In this document: positions 2,105 to 20,093 of the stretch, in pieces
Layout: the number at the start of each line of letters is the position of its first letter
How positions within the stretch are numbered: the first letter of the stretch is position 1
NCBI GenBank assembly: GCA_022842065.1
Contig: JALHQH010000030.1
Span: forward strand, 62,001 to 126,000
DNA from: Caldilineaceae bacterium
GTDB taxonomy: Bacteria > Chloroflexota > Anaerolineae > Caldilineales > Caldilineaceae
Length of the DNA: 64,000 nt
Direction: 5' to 3'
The notes under the pieces: model-generated
What the model was told of the DNA's origin: nothing
The model's input: only the letters and a program-made list of their open reading frames with translations
Database searches by the model: none
Translations under genes and position numbers: made by a program

Positions 2105-2177
2105 GAAGCTAGCGTGCGGTTGTTACATAAGCGGAAGGCGGAACAAATTACCCATCTTTGCAACCTTCTTCAAAAGA

Positions 2178-5057: not shown

Positions 5058-5066
5058 GGTAAAACG

Positions 5067-7928
5067 ATGCCAAATTTTGAAACTTCCGACTTCAATACAA
5101 CAGTAACCGAACGCTTTGAACGGATGGCGGCCCTTCATGCCTTGCAATGCGTCCTACAAACGGCGCAGGCAACCTGGTCCTACACTGAACTCAATCAGGC
5201 CGCCAACCAGATTGCCCACCGGCTGCTGCAACAAGAGGGCGCGGCGGGCGGCCAAGTCATCGTCTTTTGTGCAGCATTGAGCTGGCAGATAGCGGCGCTG
5301 CTGGCGGTGATTAAGGCCGGGAAGACGGTAATCGTTGCGGATACCAGCCTGCCCGATGCACGGTTGGGCTTTATTTTTGCCGATAGTCAGGCGACGACCG
5401 TCCTGGTTGACGCCCCCTTGGCCGCACGGGCAACGGCGATCCTGGCGACGGTGGACGAGCCGTCCTGTCTGATCACACCGCTGACCGTTGACACCCCTGC
5501 CGCTGCTACCGCTGTTGCCAACCCGGCCCTGGTGATCGATCCCGACACGCCCTTGGCCATGATTTACACATCGGGGTCAACCGGCAACCCCAAGGGCGTG
5601 GTGCGCAGCCATCGCACCCAAATGCAAAATATCTGGCATTTTCACCAACGGAGCAACTTGCCGACCCCCTGTCGTGGCGGGGTGAGCAGTTCGTTGGCCT
5701 ATGCCGCCACCTTTGGCCTGACCTTACGGCTGCTGCTACAGGGCAGTACGATCTATGCCTATGATCTCACGGCTGGTAGCCTGCCGGGCTTTACCCAATG
5801 GTTGACTCAGGAGCGCATTCACTTCATCATCCCGCCAATTGCTCTGGTGCGGCAATGGTGCAATTCACTCACTGCGCCGGTTGAACTACCCGATTTACAG
5901 TTGGTTGAATTTGTCGGCGCGCAGGTCAACAAACAGGACTTGCAGCAACTGCGTGCCAAAGTGCTGGGTGATTACACCATCGCGCTGGTCTATGGCGCGA
6001 CGGAAACGCTTAATGTTACCAACTATCTGGTGGGCGATCTAGCCCAACTGCCAGAAGGCGCGCTGCCTGGCGGCTATTTTAGCGCTGACAAAGCCGTTCT
6101 GGTGCTGGATGAGCAGGGCGAAGCTGTAGCGCAGGGGCAAGTCGGGGAAATTGTGGTGGCCAGCCGCTATATTGGGACTGGCTACTGGCGGCGGGTAGCG
6201 CTCACCGCCGCCAAATTTAGAAGCGATCCACAGGAACCAACACGCCGTCTATTTTTTACCGGCGACCTGGGCTACCTGGCAGATGACGGCGGTCTATACA
6301 TTACCGGTCGTAAAGATTTTATGGTGAAGGTGCGCGGCTATCTTGTCGAATTGACCGAGGTGGAGCAAGTGCTGGCGGCGGTCAATGGCGTCGCCCAGGC
6401 AGTGGTGGTTGCCCAGGAGGCGGCAACCGCCGAGCCGAACAGCGGTGCGGAAAAAGAATTAACGGCCTATTGGGTGCGTGAGCCACAAGCCAACCTGACC
6501 CAGCCGCAATTGCGCGCGCAACTGGCCGAACGGTTGCCAGCCTATATGTTGCCGACCCATTTTGTCGAGCTGGCCGCGCTGCCGTTGACCCCGAATGGCA
6601 AAATTGATCGGCGCGCCCTGCCCGTACCCACGATCGACCAGGGCGCCGCGGCTGGTGCCGTTGCGGCACCAAGCACGCCAACCGAACAAGCGCTGTTACA
6701 GATCTGGCGGCAATTGTTGCAACGCGAGGCAATTGGCTTCCACGACAATTTTTTCGCGCTGGGTGGTCATTCACTGCTGGCATTGCGTCTACTGGTAGCG
6801 GTGGAACAACATTTCCAGTGTGCGCTTGAACTGCGTTCATTTGTCTTTACCCCCACCATCGCCCACATGGCCGCCCTCCTTGATCGTCGGCAAGCGGCGA
6901 TGGTGACTGGACAACCGGCGGCTGTGGCGGCAACAACGCCGTTGCCAAACCAGGAAGCGCTTGACATGCTCTATGCGGCGTTAACAGATCCGCCCAAAAT
7001 GCAACAACTGCACCACGCCGCCCACCCGACGAAAGCCCGCCCCCGCTGGCTACAACTGCTGTTGCGCCTACCCCAACCGCTGGCCATGACAAGTCTGGCC
7101 TGGCTAGTGCAACAACGTTGGGTGCAACAACGCTATTTGTCCAGACAAATAAAGTTGGTTCAACAATTCCTGGCCGCTCTGGAACAGCCGCGCTTGCCAA
7201 TGCACTCACCTGAAACCGTCCTTTCCCGCGCTTTGTTTTTTGGCTCTTTGCAGCACTTTCAACTGCGCCGTGCGATCTTTCAGCGTCTTCGTCAGCAGCC
7301 GCCCTTGCCCATAGCAGGGATGCCGTTGTTGGAAAAGGCGCGTGCGCAGCAACAAGGCGTAATTTTACTAATCAGCCATGATTATCAGGCGCCCTATTTT
7401 CGCACCCTGCGGCTAATGCAGCGCACCATTGCCAACATGGCGCCTCTTGTTCAGCCGCACGCCGTTGATCCGGTTATGGCGGAAACCATGTTATATGCCC
7501 ACCAGTTGGAACTAGCGCGACAAATATTGCAACAAGGGGGCGTGATCGCCATTGCCCCAGATGTGAATCGCGGGCATGGGCCTCAAACCGCCGTTCCTTT
7601 CCATGGCCGCTTGCACCAATTTCGTACCACTTTTGCCGAACTGGCGCTGCTCACCGATGCCCAGCTCATCTTTGTCGCCAGTGATCTACAAGCGTACAAC
7701 CGTTTCAGCTTTCAATTGGTCGGGCCGTTTGACAAGGGGACGCCGGCAATGAGCTACGCCGACCGGGTGCAACATCTGCTGAATCAATATGTGGCGCATC
7801 TGCGGCAGCAATGGGCTAAGAATCCGTGGGCGCTGCCCTGGTGGTTGATGAGTGAACATTTAGCCTGTCCCCCGGCGGAGACCGCGCCGGGCAGCATGCC
7901 CACTAATCAGATGTTAAAGGAAAGATAG
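5067..7928 (+). CDS. NRPS-like synthetase 2: adenylation, carrier, LpxL-like acyltransferase
   Basis: This 953-residue paralogue of the preceding gene has the same three-part layout. Adenylation motifs include AMIYTSGSTGNPKG (residues about 165-178), LVYGATETLN, FTGDLGYL, VKVRGYLVELTEVE and LTPNGKIDRR. The carrier serine is Ser569 in GGHSLLALR. The C-terminal domain has His771 in LLISHDYQA and ends with the same WWLMSEHLACP block as its twin. In the A4 region, where the first synthetase has Asp, this one has Tyr by alignment (SSLAYAATFG), so it may activate a substrate lacking an alpha-amino group, or be altered in activity. The ATG follows a gaggt ribosome site that overlaps the stop of the preceding gene, implying co-translation. 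The acceptor of the transferred group is unknown. Confidence 0.85.
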   Translation: MPNFETSDFNTTVTERFERMAALHALQCVLQTAQATWSYTELNQAANQIAHRLLQQEGAAGGQVIVFCAALSWQIAALLAVIKAGKTVIVADTSLPDARLGFIFADSQATTVLVDAPLAARATAILATVDEPSCLITPLTVDTPAAATAVANPALVIDPDTPLAMIYTSGSTGNPKGVVRSHRTQMQNIWHFHQRSNLPTPCRGGVSSSLAYAATFGLTLRLLLQGSTIYAYDLTAGSLPGFTQWLTQERIHFIIPPIALVRQWCNSLTAPVELPDLQLVEFVGAQVNKQDLQQLRAKVLGDYTIALVYGATETLNVTNYLVGDLAQLPEGALPGGYFSADKAVLVLDEQGEAVAQGQVGEIVVASRYIGTGYWRRVALTAAKFRSDPQEPTRRLFFTGDLGYLADDGGLYITGRKDFMVKVRGYLVELTEVEQVLAAVNGVAQAVVVAQEAATAEPNSGAEKELTAYWVREPQANLTQPQLRAQLAERLPAYMLPTHFVELAALPLTPNGKIDRRALPVPTIDQGAAAGAVAAPSTPTEQALLQIWRQLLQREAIGFHDNFFALGGHSLLALRLLVAVEQHFQCALELRSFVFTPTIAHMAALLDRRQAAMVTGQPAAVAATTPLPNQEALDMLYAALTDPPKMQQLHHAAHPTKARPRWLQLLLRLPQPLAMTSLAWLVQQRWVQQRYLSRQIKLVQQFLAALEQPRLPMHSPETVLSRALFFGSLQHFQLRRAIFQRLRQQPPLPIAGMPLLEKARAQQQGVILLISHDYQAPYFRTLRLMQRTIANMAPLVQPHAVDPVMAETMLYAHQLELARQILQQGGVIAIAPDVNRGHGPQTAVPFHGRLHQFRTTFAELALLTDAQLIFVASDLQAYNRFSFQLVGPFDKGTPAMSYADRVQHLLNQYVAHLRQQWAKNPWALPWWLMSEHLACPPAETAPGSMPTNQMLKER

Positions 7929-7931
7929 TCG

Positions 7932-9857
7932 ATGTTGATGAAGAACCTTGGCCGGCAACAGTGGCAGGCGCTCGCCAAAACACTCCGTTGGATTTGGCAA
8001 ATGGCCTGGGCCACCGACTCACGCTTGTTAGTTGGCTTTCTCGCCATGTCTGTGCTGGAAAGCCTGTTGCCCGCTGCGATCGCCTTGACCGGGCGCGGGT
8101 TGATCAACGCCATTGTCGCCGGGGTGCAACAAGGCGGCGATGCGGTGCCTAACCTGCTGCCTTGGTTAGCATTGGGAGCCATATTGGCGACCAGCAGTGC
8201 CGTCATCACCAATCTGGGGGATTATTGGCAACAGTGCTTGCAGGATAAACTCCAACAGCGCGTGGGGCTGGATGTCTTAACGCAAGCGTCCCGCCTTGAC
8301 CTCGCCCAGATGGAAAGCAAAGAAACGCAAGATCACATTGAGCGCGTCCGCCGTTACGGCGGCGGTGTGGTGGCCCAAGTGATCGTCAAAGTCGTGATGC
8401 TACTCAACCTTGTGCTGCGCTTTATCAGCCTGGTGGGTATCTTGCTCTGGATCGAACCGCTCGTGGTCGGCTGGCTGGGCGTGTTGGCCATGCCGATTTT
8501 GGTCCTGCGCTGGCGCTTGGCCAATCAAACCTATGCCATGCACCAACGCCGCGCCCTCAAGTATCGGTGGTCCGCCTATTACACCAATACGCTCACCAAC
8601 TTGCGCTCGCTGCCGGAGGTGAAAGTATTTAATCTAGCGCCACTCTTCATCGCGCGCTTTCGGCAGCTCAGTGACGAATTTCTGGTGGAGGATCGCCGGC
8701 TCTACCGCTTTACCATGTGGTTAAATATCAGCTTTGCCTTTGCCGGCGCGATTGGGCTCTATACACTCTTTGGCCGCATCGCCGGGCGGATCTTTGCCGG
8801 GGCGTTAACGGTGGGCGATGTAGCGATCTACACGGGCAGTGCGATGCAACTGCAAAGTACGGTCCAAAGCTTGGTGCAAACGGTGGCCGGGCTACGCGAA
8901 CAACTCTTGCATCTGGCGGATCTGCGTGCCTTTCTGGCGATTCAACCAGCGCCGCATGCGCTAGCCCGCCAGAGAAATACCCCCCAAGACGCACCCCAGT
9001 CGGTTCCCAATCCAGCCTTCATACCCACACCAATCATGGAGACGCGCAAATCACCTTGTCACCCTGTCACCCTGTCACCTTGTCCACCCCACAAGGGCAC
9101 CATCGAATTCGACAACGTCTCCTTCACCTATCCTGAAAGCGACGAATCGACGCTGGTCAATCTTTCCTTCTCCCTGGCCCCCAACGAAACGGTGGCCGTG
9201 GTCGGCGAGAATGGGGCCGGCAAGAGTACGCTGGCGATGCTGCTGGCGGGCTTGTACACGCCAACCACCGGCATGATTCGGGTGGACGGGGTTGATCTAC
9301 AGACGATTGATCCGGCGGTCTGGCAGGAACAGATCGGTTTTGTCTTCCAGCGCTTTATCCCTTATGAAGCAACCGTACAGGAGAATATTGCCTATGGCGA
9401 TTGGCAACGGCTCCTGGCACACCCGCACGAGGTCGCACAACTTGCCCGTCAGGCCCGAGCTGAGGAGTTGATCGCGCACCTGCCCGCAGGCTATGAGACG
9501 ATCCTGGGGCGCCAATTTGGGAAGCAGAATCTGTCCGGCGGCCAATGGCAGCGCCTAGCCCTTGCGCGCGGGATTGCCCGCACCAATGCGCGACTGCTCA
9601 TTCTGGATGAACCCAGTGCCAGCCTGGATGCCCGTGCCGAGTATGAACTTTTCAGCCGCTTTCAACAGGCGGCTACGGGGCGCACCACCATGTTGATCTC
9701 GCACCGCTTCTCGACCATCAGCATGGCGGATCGCATTCTGGTGTTGGAAAAAGGCCAACTGATAGAGTGTGGTACGCATGACGACCTACTGGCGCAGGGC
9801 GGTCACTATACCATGTTATATCGGCTGCATCGGCAGCAGATTGGGGCACAAGCATAA
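7932..9857 (+). CDS. ABC transporter, fused permease and ATPase
   Basis: The 641-residue half-transporter has an N-terminal membrane domain of about six helices (residues 30-330) and a C-terminal nucleotide-binding domain. Walker A (GENGAGKST), signature (NLSGGQWQRLALARG), Walker B (LLILDEPSASLD) and switch His (SHRF) are all present. By family it would work as a dimer in the inner membrane, most likely exporting the product of the synthetases directly upstream; the start lies 3 bases after their stop and follows aaaggaaag. The linker between the domains (about residues 350-390) holds an extra Pro/Ser/Thr segment encoded by octamer repeats at 9051-9085, unlike normal family members. The substrate is inferred only from context. 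Confidence 0.9.
   Translation: MLMKNLGRQQWQALAKTLRWIWQMAWATDSRLLVGFLAMSVLESLLPAAIALTGRGLINAIVAGVQQGGDAVPNLLPWLALGAILATSSAVITNLGDYWQQCLQDKLQQRVGLDVLTQASRLDLAQMESKETQDHIERVRRYGGGVVAQVIVKVVMLLNLVLRFISLVGILLWIEPLVVGWLGVLAMPILVLRWRLANQTYAMHQRRALKYRWSAYYTNTLTNLRSLPEVKVFNLAPLFIARFRQLSDEFLVEDRRLYRFTMWLNISFAFAGAIGLYTLFGRIAGRIFAGALTVGDVAIYTGSAMQLQSTVQSLVQTVAGLREQLLHLADLRAFLAIQPAPHALARQRNTPQDAPQSVPNPAFIPTPIMETRKSPCHPVTLSPCPPHKGTIEFDNVSFTYPESDESTLVNLSFSLAPNETVAVVGENGAGKSTLAMLLAGLYTPTTGMIRVDGVDLQTIDPAVWQEQIGFVFQRFIPYEATVQENIAYGDWQRLLAHPHEVAQLARQARAEELIAHLPAGYETILGRQFGKQNLSGGQWQRLALARGIARTNARLLILDEPSASLDARAEYELFSRFQQAATGRTTMLISHRFSTISMADRILVLEKGQLIECGTHDDLLAQGGHYTMLYRLHRQQIGAQA
9051..9085 (+). repeat. Octamer tandem repeat inside the ABC transporter gene
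   Basis: Four copies of the 8-base unit TCACCYTG run head to tail, read in frame as part of the linker between permease and ATPase. Eight is not a multiple of three, so the copies encode different residues. The same unit, in its TCATCTTG form, makes intergenic arrays near 44.15-44.2 kb and 48.15-48.23 kb. Confidence 0.8.
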
Positions 9858-10222
9858 CAACACTTAACTATATGTAACCTTTCGCCGTGGTCGATACCAC
9901 GCTATTAGCGGCATCGAAGCCGATTCGGCCATGACTGAACATATTTTATACAACCGCCAACTGGAATTGGCCCGCCAAACGCTGCAACAGGGGTAGGGTT
10001 CTCATTTCAACCGCAGTATAAATGTCCGTGTTGGGTAAACAATAGGCATAGAACAACGGCACATGAAAAGCGTAAGCAAAACGCAAGTTTTTATAACCAA
10101 TCATAACTTGACGCTCACCCAAAATCATACTATTCTAAAAGTCCCCTGGCAAATAGCCTAAGCCGACAACTTTTAAATTAACCATACAGCAATCGCAAAA
10201 TTTTTACCAGTGATAATTCGCA
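9858..10222. other. AT-rich gap after the exporter
   Basis: Apart from the domain relic, this 365-base gap holds no supported gene. A minus-strand frame at 9946-10128 is open but has no recognisable motif or ribosome site. The AT-rich bases just before 10223 may contain the promoter of the next two genes, but no clear -35/-10 pair is visible. Confidence 0.4.
9877..9996 (+). pseudogene. Relic of an LpxL-like acyltransferase domain
   Basis: Translation of this gap gives a fragment ending MTEHILYNRQLELARQTLQQ, followed by Gly and a stop at 9994. It matches the segment MAETMLYAHQLELARQILQQ of synthetase 2 and the corresponding part of synthetase 1. Only about 40 residues are recognisable; no start or following sequence survives. 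It is most simply the leftover of a further synthetase copy lost from the cluster. The rest of the gap to 10222 is AT-rich and shows no gene I can support. Confidence 0.7.
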
Positions 10223-11473
10223 ATGGCACAACATCCGCTACACGACCTCTTGTTGGCTTGTTTACGCGTCACACCCACGCCGACCCTGACCACCGATCTG
10301 GCGCAACTTTCGCCAAGTGATTGGCAACAGCTGTTGCAGTTGAGTCAACAGCAGCACATTTCTCCGTTGTTCTACCATCGTCTAAAAGAGCATCAGCTAA
10401 GCGAACTGGTTACACCGGCGGTACGCCAACAGTTGCAACAACTTCAACTGGCTAATAGTGTGCGTAACATGCGTATTAACCACGAACTGCGCAGATTGGC
10501 CGCTGCGTTTCAAGCCGTACAGATTCCGATCATTGTGCTCAAAGGGGCCTACCTGGCCGCAGCGGTCTATCCGAATCCGGCGTTGCGCTTTATGGCCGAC
10601 CTGGATCTGCTGGTGCCACAAGCTGCGCTGCCGGCCGTTGTGGCCTTATTGCAGCAACAAGGCTATGAACCAGTGATACCAATTGTGCTGGAGGCACATA
10701 CGCAAACAAGCCACCACCTGCCGCCCTTTCGGCACGCCGAGCGCGTTGTGGGTGTCGAGATTCACTGGACAATTACAACGCCTGACGATGCTGATACAGT
10801 TAATATTGGCCAGTTCTGGGCCCAGGCCCAACCAATCACAATTGCCGGCATGCTTGGGCAGACCTTCTGCCCTGAGGATTTGCTCTTACATATCTGTGTC
10901 CATGCCACCTATCATCATTATTTTGCCCAAGATATCCGTTATCTTTGTGATATTGATGCCATTGTCCGTCGCTACCCAACATTGGATTGGCAGCTGCTCA
11001 TTGCACGGGCCAAACAGCGCCGTTGGACAAGAGGCGTGCATACTGCGCTTTACCTAACCCGCCAGTTACTAGGTACGGCCATTCCCGATCAGGTCATAGC
11101 AGCCCTTGGCCCAACGCACTTATCTAACACGATTGTTGAAACAATTATGGCCGAAATGTTTGCCGATAAGGTCGAGAATCGTCGCATTTCGCTGAATTTT
11201 ATCGAGCTGTGGCAAGTGGGGCAAGCCTCAGCACGCAGCAAAATTATGTTGCAACGGCTCTTTGTCTCGCCAACCATGTTGGCGAGCATCTATTCGATCT
11301 CGCCACGGTCGCCCAAAGTGCTCTTTTACTATCTGGTTCGACTAAAAGATCTGGTGCTGCGCTATAGCGGTAAAAGCTGGCAACTCTGGCGTGGGCAGGC
11401 CGCCGCCGTGACCCAAGTCACACGTAACCACCAATTAACCCACTGGCTACATGCAACCACTGATCACGAATGA
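10223..11473 (+). CDS. NTP_transf_5-like nucleotidyltransferase family protein
   Basis: The 416-residue protein matches the pattern of uncharacterised nucleotidyltransferases (Pfam NTP_transf_5) often found in natural-product and exosortase-linked clusters. The core is IIVLKGAYLAAAVYPNP followed by RFMADLDLLV, where the two Asp of DLD would bind metal; an EIHWTI strand supplies a further acidic residue. The family is thought to move a nucleotide or phosphate group onto a small molecule or protein, but no reaction is established. It follows the exporter and may tailor or confer immunity to the cluster product. The ATG has only a poor ribosome site. Its stop overlaps the next start as ATGA, so the two are co-translated. 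Confidence 0.75.
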   Translation: MAQHPLHDLLLACLRVTPTPTLTTDLAQLSPSDWQQLLQLSQQQHISPLFYHRLKEHQLSELVTPAVRQQLQQLQLANSVRNMRINHELRRLAAAFQAVQIPIIVLKGAYLAAAVYPNPALRFMADLDLLVPQAALPAVVALLQQQGYEPVIPIVLEAHTQTSHHLPPFRHAERVVGVEIHWTITTPDDADTVNIGQFWAQAQPITIAGMLGQTFCPEDLLLHICVHATYHHYFAQDIRYLCDIDAIVRRYPTLDWQLLIARAKQRRWTRGVHTALYLTRQLLGTAIPDQVIAALGPTHLSNTIVETIMAEMFADKVENRRISLNFIELWQVGQASARSKIMLQRLFVSPTMLASIYSISPRSPKVLFYYLVRLKDLVLRYSGKSWQLWRGQAAAVTQVTRNHQLTHWLHATTDHE

Positions 11474-12495
11474 TGAAAAATCTAACCATCGCCGCCGCAG
11501 TAAGCCGACCCCAGCCGCACGTACAACAGACCCTCCTCTTGCGCGCGGCCCTGCTCTCGCGCCAAGCCGCGGTGACGGCCTGGTACCAGTGGCGGGCCAA
11601 CGCCGATCTCGATCAGTTACCCACCGGCGGTTTTCTCCTTTTACCGCTGCTCGCCTACAATCTCCAACGGCACGGGATCACTGATCCGCTACTGGACAAG
11701 TGCCAAGGCATCCACCGCCGCACCTGGACCCAGCAACAATTGCACTTACAGGGATTGACACCGCTGCTCCAGGCATTGCAGACTGCCGGCATCAGCCCGA
11801 TCTTGCAGGGCGATCTGGCGCTGGCCCTTTTTCATTACCCGGAACAAGGGCTGCGCATGGTTGATACCGTCCACTTGTTGACCGCCACAGCCCAAGCCCA
11901 TTTAGTGCCCGCGTTGTTAACCCAGACAGGCTGGCAGCCAAAGCCGGCCAAGCACCAGTGGCTACGGTCGCTGCTTGCCGGTACACCACCACCCCAACGC
12001 TTCACCCATGCGCAGCTGCGCGAAGTCAGTTTGCGCTGGCAATCGCTGCCCCCTACCCCGGTTGCCCCGCTGGTGGATCACCAAGATCCACAGGGACAAC
12101 CCTGGTTGGTGCGTGAGCTGGCTGTGCAGTGCGTCAACCCAACCGACCTCTTTTTTGATCTCTGTGTGCAGGGGATTGTCAACCTGCAATGGTATGGCAC
12201 CATCCAGTGGATCGCCGATGCGGCCATCTTACTCCAACCAAACGCGCCGGCCATCGATTGGGCGCGCGTAGTGGCCCGCAGCCGCCAACAGGCCATGACC
12301 CTGCGCATGGCTGCAGCGCTCGATTGTCTGGTCCAGAGCGTTGATGCACCCATCCCACCGACAATTTTAGAGACGTTGGCTACCCAGCCCAGCCGCCGGG
12401 TTGAACGCTGGGAAGCAAAACTTTTTGCACATCCACCCACCCCGGCGCGCAAACTCGCCGCGCTGTGGTTGGGTAGGCAGCGGTGGATACGGTAG
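11470..12495 (+). CDS. Degenerate NTP_transf_5-like paralogue
   Basis: The 341-residue product lines up with its upstream neighbour: ILQGDLALALFHYPEQGLRM corresponds to the neighbour's VLKGAYLAAAVYPNPALRFM, but the catalytic DLD is replaced by VDTVHLL, which keeps only the first Asp. It is therefore probably not an active nucleotidyltransferase and may act as a partner or regulatory subunit of the adjacent enzyme, as happens in other pseudoenzyme pairs. Codon use and frame look intact, arguing against a pseudogene. The start overlaps the previous stop (ATGA); an alternative ATG lies at 11473. No better family assignment is visible. Confidence 0.55.
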   Translation: MMKNLTIAAAVSRPQPHVQQTLLLRAALLSRQAAVTAWYQWRANADLDQLPTGGFLLLPLLAYNLQRHGITDPLLDKCQGIHRRTWTQQQLHLQGLTPLLQALQTAGISPILQGDLALALFHYPEQGLRMVDTVHLLTATAQAHLVPALLTQTGWQPKPAKHQWLRSLLAGTPPPQRFTHAQLREVSLRWQSLPPTPVAPLVDHQDPQGQPWLVRELAVQCVNPTDLFFDLCVQGIVNLQWYGTIQWIADAAILLQPNAPAIDWARVVARSRQQAMTLRMAAALDCLVQSVDAPIPPTILETLATQPSRRVERWEAKLFAHPPTPARKLAALWLGRQRWIR

Positions 12496-12880
12496 CTGGC
12501 GCGATAATTTTGTATAGTGTCAGCGAAATTGTGCTAGTTTAACAGGGTGGCCCGCCGTGCGGATTGAGTCACGGAGTGACGACAGACGGTAGCCGCAGGT
12601 TTCAACCTACGGGTTTTTATCGGCCTGTTATCCTCGGCAAGTTGACGTGTTGCATAGCGCCTTTCTCCAGCAGGTGCGGCCCAATTTTGGGGGTAACGTC
12701 CCCGGCACAGGCGAGGAAATGGTCCGCAGACGAACTAATTTTTCGCCTGTGCCGGGGACGTAGTACAACTCGCCCCATTCCGGGGATGCGCCTTTCTCCA
12801 GCGACGTGCTTGCGAAAAATTCATGCTTGGATTACCCTATACCGCAGTAACCCGCACCCAACCACCCAACGGAGGCCCCT
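12496..12880. other. Repeat-rich gap before the DGR target gene
   Basis: This 385-base gap carries a small hairpin near 12590-12620 (ccgcaggtttcaacctacgg), a long inverted repeat at 12696-12761 and GC-rich flanks. A frame at 12564-12884 is open only because of repeat composition and shows no protein motif. The ribosome site ggagg at 12871-12875 belongs to the next gene. Confidence 0.5.
12696..12761. repeat. Inverted repeat, CGTCCCCGGCACAGGC family, copy 1
   Basis: Two perfect 19-base arms (acgtccccggcacaggcga and its complement) enclose 28 bases. The same arm sequence recurs at 16291-16359, so the DGR target gene is bracketed by two copies. Confidence 0.85.
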
Positions 12881-15800
12881 GTGAATCTAAGCGAGTGGCA
12901 AATCAAGGTCCGTGAACAATTGCAAAGTTCCACTACCTGGCTACGCAAGGCGACGCCGGGCATGGCCTATGGCGCGCTGGCGACCTGTACGCTCTTGCCG
13001 CTGGTGGCGGCCCATCAACAATTTGATGGGGCAGCGACCCAAGCGATTGCGCAGATCTTTGGCGGGATTGGCCTGAATCTCTTTTCGCAACAATTGGCCA
13101 CCTGGTTTGGCAAAAACGATGAAGAATTGGCCACGTTGTTGGGCGAAAAGGCCGAGAAGGATCCCGCCTGGCGTGATGCTTTTGATGAACTGCTCAAGCG
13201 CGTCGAGACGCCTAAACTGGCACAAGCGGTACTCAGTGAAGCGGATTGGGATCGGCTGGTGCGGTTGTTGCAGCAGGATGTGGAGCGGTTGGGCAGCAAG
13301 ATCAAGTTGCAGATTGGCGGTGATGTCGCGGGTGATGTCGTGGTGGCCGATGGGATCGGTGCAGAGATGGCGGCCATCGGCACAGGGATCACACAGATCA
13401 AAACCGATCGCTATGTGGCAAAAGAAGAACATCACCACCATGCGCCAGCGAATAGCAGCACGCCCCGTTCCAACCACTACTTTCACCGCTTACGCACCCA
13501 CTGTCATGCCATCCCGCTGACGGCGATGGGGGGCGAGGCGACGGCAGGTGATGAGGTGACGCTGGACAAGGTCTACATTGCGCTGGATACGACCACGACC
13601 GTGCTATTGACAGACGCCGAGAAAGCAGCGCACAAAAAAGCACATCCACAGCGCAACATCAGTGACGAAGAAAAGCGGATCGTCACCGCGCTGGAAGCGA
13701 CGCAGCAGACACGACGGCTGGTACTCTTGGGCCACCCCGGCGGCGGCAAGAGTACCTTTGTGCGCCAACTGTTGGCCGAGGCGGCAAGCGTTTGGTTGGC
13801 AGCAGAGACAAAGACGGCACAAGAACAGCCCGGCCCCTTCCCACTGCTCACCGTTTTGCGCGATCTAACCCCACGTTTACAGGCATTGCCGTTGGCCGAT
13901 CTCACCCCCAGCCAACAGCAGAAAGCCCTGTGTGACGCGCTGATCGCCCAGTGGCATGTCGATTTGCATAATTTCGGCGGTGATGAGCACCAAGACACCT
14001 TAGCACAAGCACTGCTGACCGGCGAACTGCTAGTAGTCCTTGATGGGTTGGATGAGATGCCAGCTGCGGTACGCCCACTGGTACGCGCAGCACTGGTTGC
14101 TCTGGCAAGGGCATATCCGAAAATTGCGCAGCTGATTGTCACCTGCCGCATTCGTTCCTATCACGGCGAAGTGGTGCTGTCCGGCTTTCAAGTTTATACG
14201 CTGGCTAATTTTGACGAGGCGAAGATTCAAGCTTTTGTCAGCGGCTGGTACCAGGCCCAACTGCAACTGGGCCGCTTGCAACCCGAACAAGCCAAGACGC
14301 AGCGCGAGGATTTGCAGCGGGCAGCCCGCCAGCGCGATCTGCGCCGCATGGCCGTCAATCCCCTCTTGTTGACGACAATGGCGCTCATCCATCAAAAGCA
14401 GAAGCGGTTGCCCGATCAACGGGTCGAGCTTTATAACGAAGCCGTCGATGTGCTGCTGTATCGCTGGCAGCAGGAGCGCACAGGCCACAGTTCACCCCAA
14501 TTGACAGCCTTTCTGCAGAACAAACAAAAAGTGCGTTCCCTTTTGGAGCGGTTGGCCTATGCCGCACATCAGCCGCCCAAACAAGTCACACCGCGCCGGG
14601 GCACCCCAACGCCGCCCGCCGACGAATCGACTGACCTGACACGCAGCGAACTCTTGGCCCTGCTTGATGAAGCATTGCAAGGGCAACTGGGCTTGGCCGC
14701 CGAATTTTTAGATTACGTCGATCTGCGCGCTGGGCTGTTGGTAGGACGCGGCGGGGATGAGGACGGCAGTCGCCCCGCCCTCTATGCCTTTGCCCATCGC
14801 ACCTTTCAAGAGTATCTGGCCGGCTGTTGGTTGCTGGTCGGTCGCGAACGCAAACATAACTTCTGGGCGCACGCCGCTGAAGGTGATTATTGGCAGTTGG
14901 CCGCACAACTGGGTGCAGAAGAGTTGCTCTACAACCGCCGCGATGAACAAGGGCTGCTTGACCTGATGTATTACCTCTGTCCTGTGCGCGCCCCGCGTAA
15001 TAAACAAGACCGACGCGCTGCGCTTTGGTCCGGACAGATGGCCGCCTTACTGGAGCGCCCAACGATCGAAGCAGATAACTTTGCCGACGGCGGCACTGCC
15101 TACCTGGACCGGCTGCGCAAACGCTTAGTCGCAATCCTCACCGGCAACCAACTCCCCGCCCTGGAACGGGCCGAGGCCGGCCGCGTCCTCGCCAAGCTGG
15201 GCGACCCGCGCCCCGCAGTGACCACCATCGACCAGATGGAGTTCTGCTTTGTGCCTGCCGGCCCCTTCATCATGGGCAGCAAAAAAGGTGATGGCCCCGG
15301 TGAAGATCCGCTGGCTTATGAAGATGAAGAACCACAACATACCTTTGACATTGCCCATGACTACTGGCTGGCTCGCTACCCGCTGACCAATGCCCAGTAC
15401 GATCTGTTTGTGAAAGACGGCGGGTACGCCAACCCAACCTATTGGGTCGAAGCCGCGGCGCATGGTTACTGGCAGGATGGTGCCTTCAAAGGCCGCGCTG
15501 ACGATGAACCGCGCACCAAACCTAATCAATATGGCGAACCCTTTGATCTACCCAACCACCCGGTCGTCGGCATCTCCTGGTATGAAGCCCTCGCCTATAG
15601 CCGTTGGTTGACCGAACGGTTGCCCGCGGGCTGGCAAGCGCGGCTGCCCAGTGAGGCAGAGTGGGAAAAGGGCGCGCGCGGTGGTTTGCAGATCCCCGCA
15701 AAGCCGCTAATTGCCTCGTTGACCAAGGTGACAGTCACTTTGCAAAGTGACTGTCACCTCATCGACAATCCCAACCCGACGCGGCGTTATGCCTGGGGTG

Positions 15801-16162
15801 ATCAGATCGAGGCAGAAAAGCTTAACTACAACGAAACGAACATCGGCAGCACCAGCGCGGTGGGCGCGTTTCCCGGCGGCGTGAGTCCGTATGGAGCAGA
15901 GGAAATGAACGGCAGTGTGTGGGAGTGGTGTAGCACCATCGGCTATGCAGATTATGCAGAATATGCACAACAAGCCGACAATTCACTACACGAAAATTCG
16001 CGGCGGGTGGTGCGGGGCGGCTCGTTCGCTTACAACGTCCACGACGCGCGCGCTACCTCTCGTTACGGGTTCTATCCCGTCCACCGGTACTACGGCGTGG
16101 GGGTGCGGTTTCTGCTGTCCCCATCACTTCTGTCATCGGTCCCTCTGCCCTCTGGACTCTGA
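12881..16162 (+). CDS. DGR variable protein: NACHT NTPase with FGE/C-type-lectin-fold domain
   Basis: The 1093-residue protein starts at GTG after ggagg. Residues 1-270 are a helical N-terminal region of unknown role. A NACHT NTPase follows: Walker A GHPGGGKST near 284, Walker B LLVVLDGLDEMP near 382, and a helical region containing AVNPLLLTTMALIH. From about 786 to 1085 is an FGE-sulfatase domain (FVPAGPFIMGS, LPSEAEWEKGARGG, RRYAWGD, NGSVWEW, RVVRGGSF). The last part, residues about 1041-1081, is the variable repeat of the DGR. Cysteines needed by true formylglycine-generating enzymes are absent, so the domain should bind ligand rather than catalyse. By analogy with NLR proteins, binding at the diversified tip would trigger NTPase-driven assembly. 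A 34-bp palindrome inserts in frame at residues 949-960. Confidence 0.92.
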   Translation: MNLSEWQIKVREQLQSSTTWLRKATPGMAYGALATCTLLPLVAAHQQFDGAATQAIAQIFGGIGLNLFSQQLATWFGKNDEELATLLGEKAEKDPAWRDAFDELLKRVETPKLAQAVLSEADWDRLVRLLQQDVERLGSKIKLQIGGDVAGDVVVADGIGAEMAAIGTGITQIKTDRYVAKEEHHHHAPANSSTPRSNHYFHRLRTHCHAIPLTAMGGEATAGDEVTLDKVYIALDTTTTVLLTDAEKAAHKKAHPQRNISDEEKRIVTALEATQQTRRLVLLGHPGGGKSTFVRQLLAEAASVWLAAETKTAQEQPGPFPLLTVLRDLTPRLQALPLADLTPSQQQKALCDALIAQWHVDLHNFGGDEHQDTLAQALLTGELLVVLDGLDEMPAAVRPLVRAALVALARAYPKIAQLIVTCRIRSYHGEVVLSGFQVYTLANFDEAKIQAFVSGWYQAQLQLGRLQPEQAKTQREDLQRAARQRDLRRMAVNPLLLTTMALIHQKQKRLPDQRVELYNEAVDVLLYRWQQERTGHSSPQLTAFLQNKQKVRSLLERLAYAAHQPPKQVTPRRGTPTPPADESTDLTRSELLALLDEALQGQLGLAAEFLDYVDLRAGLLVGRGGDEDGSRPALYAFAHRTFQEYLAGCWLLVGRERKHNFWAHAAEGDYWQLAAQLGAEELLYNRRDEQGLLDLMYYLCPVRAPRNKQDRRAALWSGQMAALLERPTIEADNFADGGTAYLDRLRKRLVAILTGNQLPALERAEAGRVLAKLGDPRPAVTTIDQMEFCFVPAGPFIMGSKKGDGPGEDPLAYEDEEPQHTFDIAHDYWLARYPLTNAQYDLFVKDGGYANPTYWVEAAAHGYWQDGAFKGRADDEPRTKPNQYGEPFDLPNHPVVGISWYEALAYSRWLTERLPAGWQARLPSEAEWEKGARGGLQIPAKPLIASLTKVTVTLQSDCHLIDNPNPTRRYAWGDQIEAEKLNYNETNIGSTSAVGAFPGGVSPYGAEEMNGSVWEWCSTIGYADYAEYAQQADNSLHENSRRVVRGGSFAYNVHDARATSRYGFYPVHRYYGVGVRFLLSPSLLSSVPLPSGL
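15726..15759. repeat. Perfect 34-bp palindrome inside the DGR target gene
   Basis: The arms aggtgacagtcactttg and its exact complement meet with no spacer. It encodes the segment around KVTVTLQSDCHLI between the conserved GARGG and RRYAWGD motifs of the FGE domain, where relatives usually have only a few residues. It preserves the reading frame. Confidence 0.85.
16000..16124 (+). repeat. DGR variable repeat (VR)
   Basis: This segment at the 3' end of the NACHT-FGE gene aligns without gaps to the template repeat 852 bases downstream. In the 118-base core (16003-16120) 17 positions differ and every one is an adenine in the template; the other 90 template bases are unchanged. Two more adenine-only differences lie at the edges. 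Fourteen residues between 1051 and 1072 are altered. The 3' end, gtgggggtgcggtttctgct, is G/C-rich and unchanged, as expected for the site where mutagenic homing begins. Confidence 0.97.
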
Positions 16163-16180
16163 AATATCTGAACTCTGATT

Positions 16181-16199
16181 GTGGACGCAAAGCGTCCAC
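16181..16199 (+). other. Short hairpin downstream of the VR
   Basis: An 8-bp stem (gtggacgc / gcgtccac) with a 3-base loop lies 57 bases past the VR end and 19 bases past the stop. In well-studied DGRs a hairpin just beyond the VR promotes homing, so this is a candidate for that role. Confidence 0.5.
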
Positions 16200-16206
16200 G
16201 GGGGGT

Positions 16207-16242
16207 GTGGGGGGCGTGCCCCCCACGCGCGAAATTTTTTTT
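16207..16242 (+). terminator. Probable terminator of the DGR target gene
   Basis: The stem gtgggggg / ccccccac with loop cgtg is followed by gcgcgaaa and a run of eight T. It could end the target-gene transcript; it may also add to the hairpin structure used in homing. Confidence 0.6.
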
Positions 16243-16290
16243 AGGGCCATGGCTGCAAGCTACCGCCGGCACATTCGAATAGCGAGCGGC

Positions 16291-16359
16291 AACGTCCCCG
16301 GCACAGGCCAGGACTGGTGCGCGATTTCCCAGTAGTTTGTGGCCTGTGCCGGGGACGTT
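16291..16359. repeat. Inverted repeat, CGTCCCCGGCACAGGC family, copy 2
   Basis: Perfect 20-base arms (aacgtccccggcacaggcca and its complement) enclose 29 bases, matching the arms of copy 1 at 12696-12761. It separates the target gene from avd. Confidence 0.85.
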
Positions 16360-16449
16360 ATGGTGGGGAGCAGCTGCAACATGCCCCAACGCGTAAAGGT
16401 GCGTAATTCCGCCGATGCACTTTCCGCGCGCTTGCCCTATGCTAATGGT

Positions 16450-16824
16450 ATGAGCCAATCCACCGAAATGATCATCTTTATTCGTACCTTTGACTTGCTG
16501 ATCTGGCTAGTGCCGGTCACCAACCACTTTCCGCGCAGCCATCGCCACACCGTCACCCAACGGGTGCTGAACGCCGCGTTTGATCTGCGCGAGCATCTAG
16601 AAGTGGCGAATGTGCGCAAAGGAAAGGCGCGGCTGGAACAGTTGCAACTGGCGGATGAAGCGCTGGCCAAATTACGCATGTATCTGCGCCTCTTTCACCG
16701 TATGCACTGGTTCACCGATGGTCAATATCACCACAGCACCCAAATGGTGGTTGAGATCGGGCGGCTGCTCGGCGGTTGGCAGAAGCAGACGGATGGTGCA
16801 CAAAGTGGTAAATATCGGGCATAG
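16450..16824 (+). CDS. avd: DGR accessory variability protein Avd
   Basis: This 124-residue basic helical protein has the pattern of Avd, the four-helix-bundle partner of DGR reverse transcriptases: IFIRTFDLLIWLVPVTNHFP, then RSHRHTVTQRVLNAAFDLRE, a helix ending EALAKLRMYLRLFHRM, and EIGRLLGGW. Avd forms a pentamer that binds the reverse transcriptase and template RNA and is needed for cDNA synthesis and homing. The frame is open from 16339, but those codons lie in an inverted repeat, so the ATG at 16450 giving the usual length is preferred. It sits between target gene and template repeat, the classic order. Confidence 0.88.
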   Translation: MSQSTEMIIFIRTFDLLIWLVPVTNHFPRSHRHTVTQRVLNAAFDLREHLEVANVRKGKARLEQLQLADEALAKLRMYLRLFHRMHWFTDGQYHHSTQMVVEIGRLLGGWQKQTDGAQSGKYRA

Positions 16825-17204
16825 GCCCGCTTTGCGGGGGCAGACTCACAGGCAGCGGGTGGTGCGGGGCGGCTCGTTCGCTAACAACGACAACAACGCG
16901 CGCGCAACCTATCGTAACAGGAACAATCCCGACAACCGGAACAACAACGTGGGGGTGCGGTTTCTGCTGTCCACATTTTTCCAAAACATGTCCCACCAGG
17001 AATGCCGGTCGGCGGTGATACAGCTTACCGGACGCGGTGAAAAATGGCGGAGTCTGTTCCTGGCCGCGCCGCCTTGACCGTGGTCGGTTCGTGAGTAACT
17101 GATCATCGCCAAAGCGGCCGGGCGCATAACAACGGCCCCCCACCCTCGGCCCGCTGCCTGGCACATAGCTAGACAAGACCCTGGTGGGGGCCACTCTTTC
17201 CCCC
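16825..17204 (+). ncRNA. DGR template RNA region
   Basis: The 380-base gap between avd and the reverse transcriptase contains the template repeat and about 200 bases of spacer. In known DGRs this region is transcribed as a non-coding template, with the spacer bound by the reverse transcriptase and Avd. A frame open through the repeat and beyond it is incidental. Transcript ends cannot be read from the sequence. Confidence 0.75.
16852..16976 (+). repeat. DGR template repeat (TR)
   Basis: This 125-base template reads in the VR frame as QRVVRGGSFANNDNNARATY and onward, with many AAC codons. Mutating A in AAC yields many residues and never a stop, which is typical of DGR templates. The 118-base core holds 28 adenines, of which 17 differ in the VR. 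Confidence 0.97.
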
Positions 17205-18287
17205 ATGATCTATCCACAACTCTACGCTTGGGACAATTTGCTGCTGGCCTATCGGCGCGCCGCCAAAGGCAAGCGCGGCCATACCAATGTCGCGGCCTTT
17301 GAATACCGGCTTGAAGAAAATCTGCTACTCCTTCAGGAAGAATTAGCCGCGCAAAGCTATCAACCCGGCCCCTATACCAGCTTTTATATCCACGAACCAA
17401 AGCGCCGCCTCATCTCCGCCGCGCCCTTTCGCGATCGCATTGTCCACCATGCGCTCTGCAATCTGCTTGAACCGCCCTTTGAACGTGCCTTTGTTGCTGA
17501 TGCCTATGCCAACCGGGTCGGCAAAGGCACCCATCGGGCGCTGGACCGCGCGCAGCAGTTTGCCCGTCGACATCGCTACGTGCTGCAATGTGACCTCCGT
17601 CAATTTTTCCCCAGTATTGACCATGCGATCCTGCGTGCGATCCTAGCGCGCAAGGTGCATGACAAAGGGCTATTGGGGCTAATTGATCGCATCCTCGCCG
17701 GTGGCGGCGATCTCCTTGGCGAACAGTACACAATGGTCTACTTCCCCGATGACGATCTCTTTAGTATTAGCCGGCCACGCGGGTTACCCATCGGCAATTT
17801 GACCAGCCAATTCTGGGCCAACTGTTATCTCAACGGGGTTGATCACTTTGTCAAGCGGTCGTTAAGGTGTCCGGGCTATGTACGCTATGTCGATGATCTG
17901 CTACTTTTTGGTGATGACAAAGCGACTTTGTGGCAGTGGCAAAGCGCGCTGGTTGCGCAATTGGCAACATTGCGCCTCACCATCCATCCTGGTGCCCAGC
18001 CCCGGCCTGTGACGGAAGGCTTTCCCTTTCTCGGCTTTACCCTCTTCCCCAACCGGCGCCGCTTGAAACGGCGCAAAGGGCTCTACTTTCAACGGAAATT
18101 CGGTCGGCTGCTGGCACGGCGACGGACTGGGTTGGGGAGTTTTCAGCAGATCAATGCCTGTGTGTTGGGGTGGGTGAATCATGTCCGCTATGCGAATACA
18201 GTGGGGCTGCGTAAAGCGATCTTAACGGAAAAGCCAAACAGCCAGTTGGTAGGCGAGGGTTTTACAGCTCGTTCCTCTACGTCCTGA
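17205..18287 (+). CDS. DGR reverse transcriptase
   Basis: The 360-residue enzyme has reverse transcriptase motifs in order: KRRLISAAPFRDRIVHHAL, LQCDLRQFFPSID (catalytic Asp near 130), LPIGNLTSQFWANCYLN (196-202 is IGNLTSQ, the DGR signature replacing QG of other groups), YVDDLLLF (228-231) and FLGFTLFP. It would copy the template RNA with errors at adenine and deliver cDNA to the VR. The ATG at 17205 is favoured over GTG 17184. The C-terminus after GLRKAILTEK reads into repeat-like DNA (GEGFTARSSTS), which may be a replaced end. It is the last gene of the cassette. Confidence 0.95.
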   Translation: MIYPQLYAWDNLLLAYRRAAKGKRGHTNVAAFEYRLEENLLLLQEELAAQSYQPGPYTSFYIHEPKRRLISAAPFRDRIVHHALCNLLEPPFERAFVADAYANRVGKGTHRALDRAQQFARRHRYVLQCDLRQFFPSIDHAILRAILARKVHDKGLLGLIDRILAGGGDLLGEQYTMVYFPDDDLFSISRPRGLPIGNLTSQFWANCYLNGVDHFVKRSLRCPGYVRYVDDLLLFGDDKATLWQWQSALVAQLATLRLTIHPGAQPRPVTEGFPFLGFTLFPNRRRLKRRKGLYFQRKFGRLLARRRTGLGSFQQINACVLGWVNHVRYANTVGLRKAILTEKPNSQLVGEGFTARSSTS

Positions 18288-18464
18288 ACGCAGCTTGGCA
18301 TGACGCGAGGGCGCGTTGCGCCCAGGACGCAGAGCGTCTCGGCGGGATTCCCACGCTGAGCGTGGGAACCAGCAAATTTGGTCGTTGTGGGGGCACCCGC
18401 AAGGGGCCACCCCCACAACGACGAGACCAAATCCGTTCCCATCCCTAATCCGCTGTTTAGTCCG
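18288..18464. repeat. Hairpin-rich gap after the reverse transcriptase
   Basis: Several hairpins follow the stop: ttcccacgctgagcgtgggaa (18348-18368) and a larger one from 18376 to 18432 with arms built on atttggtcgttgtggggg. They could terminate both converging genes. No gene is supported here. Confidence 0.6.
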
Positions 18465-20093
18465 CTACTTCCCCCGATTCTTCGGCAGGAAATAGAGCGC
18501 CCATGGCGCGGGCATCTCGCCCACCGGCACGTCGATCAGCGTTGGGCGGTCGGCGTCGAAACCTTGCTGGATCGCACTCTTCAGTTCATCGGCATTGTGA
18601 GCACGCAGACCAAGAGCGCCGAAGGCGTCGGCGAGTTTGACGAAGTCGGGGTTTTCCAGGTCGGTGCCGATCACGCGGCCACCGTAATCTTTCTTCTGCA
18701 TGCGCTGGACGTTGCCAAAGGCGCCGTCGCTAAAGATCACATGGACGAGGTTGATCTTGTGTTTGACCGCGGTCGATAGCTCTTGCACGTTGAACATAAA
18801 ACCGCCATCGCCGGAGATCGAGATCACCGGTTTGTCGGGGTGCGCCACTTTGACGCCCAGGGCGGTGGCATAACTCCAGCCTAGGGTGCCTTGGTAGCCG
18901 GGCGAGATGTAGGTGCGCGGCTCGTAGACCTCGAACTCGGTGCGGCTGACATAGCCGACCTGCGTTAGGTCATCGACAAAGTAGCCATCATCGGGCAGGA
19001 CGCTGCGCATGGCCTTGAGGAAAGCCACCTGCGGCGCGACCGATTCGGCGCGCGTCTCAATTTCGGCTTTGATATCTTCCATCTCCTGCGTGCGCGAGGG
19101 GCGACTGACGCCGGCAGCCTTGAGCGCGCTGACCAACTGCGGCACGACCTCTTCACAGCGGGCGACAAAACCGACCGTCGGCTTCTGCACGCGGTAATGC
19201 TCTTCAGGGTTAATATCGACGCGGATCACCTTGAGCTTCTCATCGGTACCCCAACCCATCAGCGGGCGGGCGATGCGGCTGCCCAGGGTCACGACCACAT
19301 CCGCCTTTTCCCAGAGTTGATGGCCGGCGGTGGTACGGATCGACAAGGGATGGCGGCTGCTGACAATGCCGTGGCCGCTGCGCCCGGAGACGACCGGGGC
19401 CTGCAATAGTTCGGCCAATTCAAGCACCGCTTGGGCGCTGTCAATCGCGCCGGTGCCGACAAAGAGCAGCGGGTTTTCGGCCTTGCTGAGCAGTTCGACC
19501 GCTTCGGCCAACTTGTCACCGTCAACGGGCGGGTGGCGCTGGGCCAGTTCGACCCGACTCAGGTCTACTTCGGTCTTGGTCGAGAGCACATCGGGGGCGC
19601 ATTCCAGCCCCACGGGTTGTGGCCGGCCGGTGTGCAGTTGGCGGAAAGCTTCGGCGACCAGATAGGGGGCGTCGGCTGGGCTTTCGATGCGCTCGGCCCA
19701 TTTGGTCAAGGTCTTAAAGATGCCGATCTGGTCGGGGATCTCGTGGAGCAGCCCATAGCCTTTATTGATCGAGTCGGACTGGATCTGGCCGACCAGGGCT
19801 AACACGCGCGCATTCGTGCTATAAGCCGTGGCCAGCGCCGCTGTGGCATTGAGAAAGCCAGGACCGGGCACCACACTAAAGACCCCCACCTTGTCGCTGG
19901 AGAGGGCATAACCCAGGGCCATATAGGCCGCGCCCTGTTCATGGCGGGTGTGGATCACGCGCAGTTTGGCGCGGTTGTCATAAAAGGCGTTAAACAGGTG
20001 GTCGCTCTGCACACCAGGCAGCCCAAAGACCGTATCGACGCCATGTGCGATCAGGGACTGGACAATTGCCTCGCCCCCGGTTACCTTTGCCAT
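18465..20093 (-). CDS. Thiamine-diphosphate-dependent enzyme, acetolactate synthase-like
   Basis: The 542-residue protein has the three-domain layout of the TPP decarboxylase family: an N-terminal pyrimidine-binding domain with FGLPGVQSDHLF and the activating Glu in THTRHEQGAAYMALGYA-type context (RHEQGAAYMA), a central domain, and a C-terminal PP-binding domain with ISGDGGFMFNVQEL, the metal-binding GDG motif. Relatives include acetolactate synthase, benzoylformate decarboxylase and sulphopyruvate-type enzymes. No small regulatory subunit gene follows, so a biosynthetic acetolactate synthase is unlikely; a catabolic 2-oxo-acid decarboxylase or ligase is more probable. The ATG follows aaaggagc. 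It faces the DGR convergently. Confidence 0.85.
   Translation of the reverse strand: MAKVTGGEAIVQSLIAHGVDTVFGLPGVQSDHLFNAFYDNRAKLRVIHTRHEQGAAYMALGYALSSDKVGVFSVVPGPGFLNATAALATAYSTNARVLALVGQIQSDSINKGYGLLHEIPDQIGIFKTLTKWAERIESPADAPYLVAEAFRQLHTGRPQPVGLECAPDVLSTKTEVDLSRVELAQRHPPVDGDKLAEAVELLSKAENPLLFVGTGAIDSAQAVLELAELLQAPVVSGRSGHGIVSSRHPLSIRTTAGHQLWEKADVVVTLGSRIARPLMGWGTDEKLKVIRVDINPEEHYRVQKPTVGFVARCEEVVPQLVSALKAAGVSRPSRTQEMEDIKAEIETRAESVAPQVAFLKAMRSVLPDDGYFVDDLTQVGYVSRTEFEVYEPRTYISPGYQGTLGWSYATALGVKVAHPDKPVISISGDGGFMFNVQELSTAVKHKINLVHVIFSDGAFGNVQRMQKKDYGGRVIGTDLENPDFVKLADAFGALGLRAHNADELKSAIQQGFDADRPTLIDVPVGEMPAPWALYFLPKNRGK

Follow-up and report, generated by a model that had tools for sequence, protein, structure and literature searches.

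Genes and features of the locus

The window analysed here is a stretch of 64,000 nucleotides from a Caldilineaceae bacterium (Chloroflexota; contig JALHQH010000030.1), and at 12881-18287 it carries a cassette with the parts of a diversity-generating retroelement (DGR). A target gene ends in a variable repeat (VR) and is followed by avd, a template repeat (TR) and a reverse transcriptase (RT) gene. This order, read from the sequence in a first-pass annotation, is the order of DGRs; every part of a DGR that is visible in sequence is present, and a complete DGR is supported on that basis. Very probably, this chromosomal element copies RNA of the TR, with errors at adenines, into the 3' end of a gene for a NACHT-FGE protein, varying the predicted ligand-binding tip of a protein whose predicted structure resembles the nucleotide-binding, leucine-rich repeat (NLR) immune sensors of animals. 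The parts of the cassette are as follows.

12881..16162, + strand: target gene, 1093 aa (Pfam FGE and NACHT matches, AlphaFold2 model, fold matches)
16000..16124, + strand: VR, encoding target residues about 1041-1081
16097..16120, + strand: 3' end of the VR resembling an initiation of mutagenic homing (IMH) site, 24 nt, the same in the TR; role by analogy with BPP-1, a Bordetella phage
16450..16824, + strand: avd, likely start ATG 16450 in a frame open from 16339 (PF22296, 3.7e-18; NF033474, 87.6 bits)
16852..16976, + strand: TR, from a repeat search and a gap-free alignment with the VR
17205..18287, + strand: DGR reverse transcriptase, 360 aa (YVDD, IGNLTSQ, RVT_1 match, tree)

Adenine-specific differences between the repeats

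An adenine-blind repeat search of 12000-19500 returned VR and TR as the top direct repeat by length (125 nt, 85% identity) and reproduced the gap-free alignment of the first-pass annotation. All 19 mismatches fall at TR adenines, which number 31 among the 125 positions (hypergeometric P = 1.0e-14). Within the 118-nt core (16003-16120), the 17 mismatches are all found among 28 adenines and none among the 90 other positions; these counts, and the two further differences at the edges, had been annotated exactly. The changes from TR to VR comprise A to T (10), A to G (5) and A to C (4). Since no mismatch occurs at an adenine of the VR, the direction of mutation is from TR to VR. The 94 non-adenine positions of the TR are free of any drift mismatch against the VR. 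The edge difference at 16121 may represent a difference between IMH and IMH* rather than mutagenesis, because it lies 3' of the start of the complementary DNA (cDNA), a start that is itself placed by analogy with BPP-1.

In the frame of the target (16001-16120), 29 TR adenines are spread over 18 codons, mainly AAC or AAT, and 28 of the 29 occupy codon position 1 or 2. Adenine mutation of the TR cannot reach a stop codon in this frame, and about 10^16 protein variants are possible. The annotation had taken the fixed changes to show that the element has been active, and this holds for the past: the 17 core changes attest to past activity only.

Avd and the reverse transcriptase

The avd product passes the NCBI cut-off for the Avd model NF033474 (87.6 bits against 80), and ATG 16450 is the more likely start. 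The RT, more likely to start at ATG 17205, contains both YVDD and the DGR-type motif IGNLTSQ, as had been annotated, and is matched by RVT_1 of Pfam. Its scores against the group II model (127 bits, cut-off 300) and the retron model (42 bits, cut-off 235) fall far short. The closest solved sequence is 8ub7, which we take to be the BPP-1 RT; its length of 328 residues equals that of BPP-1 Brt.

The window and its relatives have 62 RTs of at least 300 aa, of which 22 entered a maximum-likelihood tree of 38 RTs, alongside 12 of 13 phage RTs (the 123-aa L080 was omitted) and an outgroup of two group II, one CRISPR-type and one retron-like RT. The 34 DGR-type rows were split from the four outgroup rows (94/96), and the Chloroflexota-type rows formed one clade (99/99) with the RT of the window inside it. 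Because the outgroup branches are long, only the separation of DGR-type from outgroup RTs is taken from this tree; the grouping with retrons or group II introns that the annotation had named as evidence against a DGR was not found there.

The target protein

The target protein comprises a confidently predicted helical N-terminal domain (residues 1-137), a linker of low confidence (146-195), a NACHT NTPase with helical modules, and a C-terminal FGE/C-type-lectin domain (787-1077). The Pfam matches are strong for FGE (PF03781, 2.6e-44) and above the cut-off for NACHT (35.2 bits against 26.7). The AlphaFold2 model of the protein (predicted local distance difference test score, pLDDT, of 87.2) is matched by the folds of NLRC4, NOD2 and NLRP3, and its C-terminus by a known DGR variable protein. 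No Pfam match falls in the N-terminal domain (1-137), and no fold match was confined to residues 1-192, a part that the fold search barely probes. The FGE domain alone reached a pLDDT of only 29.5 in single-sequence structure prediction.

In the model the VR forms the tip of the FGE-fold domain, the predicted ligand-binding tip of the NLR-like protein. Residues 1041-1080 contain no cysteine; the active-site pair of FGE (C336 and C341, whose mutants are named in the titles of the fold matches) presumably aligns to the VR segment. Within the FGE-coding part of the gene there is also a perfect 34-nt palindrome (15726-15759; arms AGGTGACAGTCACTTTG and its complement), where several target homologues have an alignment gap.

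Relatives of the element

A genome scan for relatives of the RT yielded 68 loci, of which 61 are labelled as Chloroflexota groups. The other seven (L003, L004, L022, L025, L048, L064 and L068) are labelled Halieaceae, Rhodobacteraceae, KSB1, Desulfobacteraceae or Proteobacteria, and represent either transfer or misbinned contigs. One or more VR/TR pairs were found in 43 of the 68 loci, and the cassettes have two layouts, with the TR before the RT gene, as in the window, or after it. Over 53 VR/TR pairs of the relatives, 918 of 949 mismatches are adenine-specific, a figure that is not taken as proof because the pair finder favoured adenine specificity.

Of 54 VR-bearing frames, 36 were aligned and scanned for domains, including that of the window (14 of the 18 omitted have their start cut by a contig end and four are shorter than 170 aa). 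FGE is found in all 36, NACHT in 26, TIR in four, EAD1 in two, and trypsin-like and NNH2 domains in one each.

The two nearest homologues of the target share 88% and 86% identity with it. The first-pass annotation had named VR differences at non-adenine bases in other strains as what would speak against it. At the protein level, the only level of this comparison, 15 of 17 residues of adenine-bearing codons differ between the window and the nearest homologue (P0001), as against 2 of 23 residues in the rest of the VR; 107 of 1022 residues differ in the body of the protein. In an alignment of 83 sequences (the window and 82 of the 143 target homologues found), the mean column entropy is 3.10 bits at adenine codons, 1.17 in the other VR columns and 1.81 in the remaining FGE domain.

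Predicted RNA helices around the template repeat

The sequence around the TR contains two long-range pairings, H1 and H0, and two local hairpins, H2 and H3.

16837..16847, + strand: helix H1, 5' strand, immediately upstream of the TR (covariation)
16974..16981, + strand: helix H0, 5' strand, at the TR 3' end (covariation)
17039..17046, + strand: helix H0, 3' strand, in the spacer (covariation)
17050..17060, + strand: helix H1, 3' strand, in the spacer (covariation)
17061..17124, + strand: H2, predicted local hairpin of the spacer RNA (minimum-energy fold)
17134..17192, + strand: H3, predicted hairpin directly before the RT gene (minimum-energy folds)

Strong covariation across the relatives indicates that H1 and H0 bracket the TR. 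In H1, the 5' flank of the TR is paired with the spacer. Its 3' strand was placed by a pairing-blind motif in 28 of 42 TR loci, the window among them, and this anchored test replaced an initial search in which the best helix was left unconstrained (mean score 27.3 for own pairs, 23.0 for swapped). H1 is complete, with 11 of 11 positions paired, in 20 of these 28; among swapped pairs the count is 22 of 756. The pairing sum of 289 was reached in none of 10,000 permutations, whose maximum was 258.

In H0, the 3' end of the TR, which directly follows a YCA in 20 of 20 loci, is paired with an 8-mer that lies three nucleotides before H1. At least seven of eight pairs are formed in 19 of these 20 loci against 126 of 380 swapped pairs (0 of 10,000 permutations; two of 22 loci were omitted, as their TR end was not delimited). 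The place of H0 is post hoc, because H0 did not reach significance in an unconstrained search (549 of 10,000 permutations scored as high) and the fixed place was set afterwards on the same loci.

For both helices together on 20 rows, 96.1% of the cells are paired and 15 of 19 pairs show double changes, with a covariation score of 0.709 against 0.268 for shuffled rows (0 of 500) and at most 0.193 for slid ones. These rows were selected for H1 and placed by pairing, the anchored H1 test being the less selected one; shuffles and swaps ignore the relatedness of the loci, for which the sliding control corrects. With H0 nested in H1, the TR would be held in a closed loop, and the arrangement is common to both cassette layouts. 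Minimum-energy folds of 14 loci, compared by eye, gave H2 a common shape in 8; H3 is mostly present in these 14, 3' of an A-rich stretch. An 11-bp complement between the 5' edge of the TR and the loop of H3, the top pairing in the window, was dropped, the relatives supporting H1 instead.

G-rich hairpins downstream of variable repeats

Two hairpins follow the VR in the window.

16181..16199, + strand: second hairpin, 8-bp stem, between the VR and the G-rich hairpin
16207..16226, + strand: G-rich hairpin, 8-bp stem and 4-nt loop, a predicted target-site hairpin or cruciform, 83 nt after the VR and just before a T-run

G-rich hairpins were defined by a perfect stem of at least 7 bp with GGGGG in the 5' arm, a criterion set after a first look in which perfect hairpins of at least seven pairs, of whatever sequence, accompanied 30 of 53 VRs (uncontrolled). 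There are 27 of them in 681,628 bp from 69 sources. They occur within 120 nt downstream of 19 of 50 plus-strand VRs, against 0.07 expected, and of none of 41 TRs.

Genomic setting

Upstream of the cassette lie genes for a halogenase-like protein, two AMP-binding/carrier proteins, an ABC transporter and two nucleotidyltransferase-like proteins; downstream follow a thiamine pyrophosphate (TPP) enzyme, a GFO/IDH oxidoreductase, a DUF4349 protein and a P450. The upstream group (782-12495; halogenase-like, two AMP-binding/PP-binding, ABC transporter and two NTP_transf_5 proteins) is possibly a natural-product cluster. Between the nucleotidyltransferase gene and the target gene, the minus strand at 12567-12612 matches the Rfam RNA Acido-Lenti-1 (RF01687) with 37.2 bits against a gathering score of 37. 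Two palindromes that share ACGTCCCCGGCACAGGC arms (12696-12761 and 16292-16358) flank the target gene. The arm has no other copy in the window at up to three mismatches and no exact copy in 102 fetched loci; the palindromes are perhaps repetitive extragenic palindromic (REP) elements or resemble miniature inverted-repeat transposable elements (MITE), and perhaps mark old borders of the cassette.

Proposed mechanism and alternatives

The process would begin with the folding of the RNA of TR and spacer, in which H1 and H0, seen as covarying pairs, would close the TR into a loop. RT and Avd would then begin the cDNA next to H0, where the TR has its 3' end, with priming sites assumed from BPP-1, and would stop near H1. 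The cDNA, mutated at adenines, would replace the VR with the help of the IMH and the G-rich hairpin, and the 19 adenine-only differences would be its outcome. The new VR would form the tip of the FGE-fold domain behind the NACHT NTPase. By analogy with Avs, bacterial NACHT proteins and animal NLRs, binding of a ligand from an invader would lead to oligomerisation and to an effector response through the N-terminus; the target protein may detect invaders.

A broader proposal is offered tentatively, as one that may well fail to hold. According to it, DGR RNAs share a clamp of two helices, in which pairing of the TR 5' flank with the spacer sets the cDNA stop and pairing of the TR 3' end with the spacer sets the start. 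In Chloroflexota the clamp would belong to an unnamed RNA family in which the TR may lie on either side of the RT gene. Along with the G-rich hairpin as a mark after many targets, it would drive, in filamentous bacteria, a somatic-like diversification of immune sensors of the NLR type.

Several results weigh against the proposed mechanism. The search gave no VR/TR pair in 25 of the 68 RT-relative loci. Pfam recognised no effector domain in residues 1-265 of the target, and a comparison with the PADLOC models gave no match for the target at E up to 0.01. The anchor motif of the H1 3' strand is absent from 14 of the 42 TR loci, and H1 is paired at nine or fewer of its 11 positions in 6 of the 28 anchored ones. 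A held-out check on 27 loci outside the 41 TR loci of the relatives left seven usable (19 lack the anchor and one was too short): a complete H1 was seen in 2 of 7, and in 1 of 42 swapped pairs (395 of 10,000 permutations reached that level); for H0 the figures were 3 of 7 and 5 of 42 (581 of 10,000). This check is small and weak, though it points in the right direction, and some of the anchors may be spurious. The minimum-energy fold of 16825-17216 is no better than that of shuffles (z -0.71), and hence the RNA structure rests on covariation. TTTT follows the G-rich hairpin within 25 nt in 9 of 19 cases, including the window, as in terminators, and the hairpin of the window may be one. According to Guo 2011 (PMC3240598), hairpins after phage VRs sit 4-34 bp downstream and BPP-1 needs its hairpin for efficient homing; that of the window is farther away (83 nt) and its loop is not GRNA.

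It is quite unlikely that the cassette is a genuine DGR that has become a relic, with old variation and a VR under ordinary selection. Two homologues of the target, P0001 and P0002, combine identical VRs (0 of 40 residues differ) with bodies in which 92 of 1022 residues differ, as a relic would allow; this suggests, from sequence comparison, either that diversification is not constant there or that the 3' end has undergone recent recombination or gene conversion. In the window, however, the parts look intact (an open RT with YVDD, Avd over its cut-off, a TR from which no stop can be reached), the differences between the repeats remain confined to adenines with no drift elsewhere, and the contrast with P0001 is concentrated at adenine codons. 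The DGR could also belong to a prophage or virus and diversify a receptor-binding protein, since many DGRs are phage-borne and 158 phage records match the RT, every one of them below 60% identity. This is hardly credible here: none of the ten scanned neighbours looks like a phage structural gene, a scan of viral_contigs, able to reach only close relatives, confirmed none for the RT, and the target is of the NACHT type rather than a tail fibre.

The function of the diversified protein is a separate matter. It might serve to recognise kin or self, much like heterokaryon incompatibility in fungi, or to sense environmental ligands, and not phage defence. Such a role is rather doubtful, although the missing PADLOC match would agree with it and kin recognition is raised as an alternative in Dore 2024 (PMC10907252). 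Against it stand the NLR-like predicted fold, a weak match to the antiphage model EruA, and the TIR, EAD1 and trypsin-like domains in the set of 36 VR-bearing frames, which are typical of conflict systems. If varied as proposed, the NACHT-FGE target would make this locus a compact case of a bacterial protein of NLR type that comes with its own means of hypermutation, and a candidate for anticipatory immunity beyond the animals. With the covarying helices, the choice of cDNA start and stop by the DGR RNA becomes a matter of specific base-pair tests, and the RNA and hairpin signatures could help to locate TRs or targets in genomes where just one of the two is assembled.

Comparison with known systems

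The DGR of BPP-1 shares with the window the order VR-avd-TR-RT, the adenine-only differences and a hairpin after the VR. In contrast, the target of BPP-1 is a phage tail protein, its hairpin is close to the VR with a GRNA loop, and the two RTs share 34% identity. Equivalents of both helices are visible in BPP-1: an 8-bp pairing stands at the place of H1, and ATCACC at the TR end is able to pair with GGTGGT, as in H0. GGTGGT directly precedes A56 of the spacer, which we take to be the priming adenine. Among 13 phage loci (uncontrolled), the top-ranked pairing falls at the expected place in BPP-1, L073, L075 and the near-identical L077 and L078. According to PMC12875486, the spacer of BPP-1 adopts a fold, and cDNA is primed by an internal adenine.

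Like the spacer RNA of the window, the Rfam families Phage_DGR (RF03022) and RT-15 (RF03018) are structured RNAs that adjoin RT genes; a search of 12500-18500 at E up to 1 listed neither of them. RF03022 matches the BPP-1 spacer (2750-2882) and lies outside the annotated TR (2887-3020), and therefore lacks the TR-flank strand of H1 and the TR-end strand of H0. In Pseudomonas phage Cruim01 (L081:3693-3986), the RT-15 RNA ends where a sequence with A-biased near-repeats elsewhere in the locus starts; RT-15 may be a DGR RNA. Among the titles and abstract openings listed in searches on DGR RNA structure or covariation, none mentions TR-bracketing helices, which does not show that no such report exists. 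In the literature covered here, neither the covariation of such helices nor the G-rich hairpin of the Chloroflexota group was met; H1 and H0 may nevertheless be known already, given their equivalents in BPP-1, whose RNA structure is solved.

Treponema denticola TvpA (2y3c), a DGR variable protein, has to our knowledge no NACHT part. The closest parallels to the target are cellular, and come from Dore 2024 (PMC10907252), which treats DGR-diversified NACHT or STAND proteins with a C-type-lectin (CLec) domain as putative antigen sensors of multicellular bacteria. The hosts of that RT lineage include filamentous Chloroflexi, and the N-terminal extensions of the targets are often uncharacterised, as is that of the window. 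Clade 5D systems commonly have two targets; one was found within the 64-kb window, and this target has no effector-associated domain (EAD) and no protease among its ten scanned neighbours. Like the clade 5D elements DGR 3 and DGR 6 of Thiohalocapsa PB-PSB1, the element of the window is a cellular DGR whose target joins a STAND NTPase to a C-terminal, VR-bearing CLec/FGE domain, and the locus fits the NACHT-FGE kind of DGR already reported.

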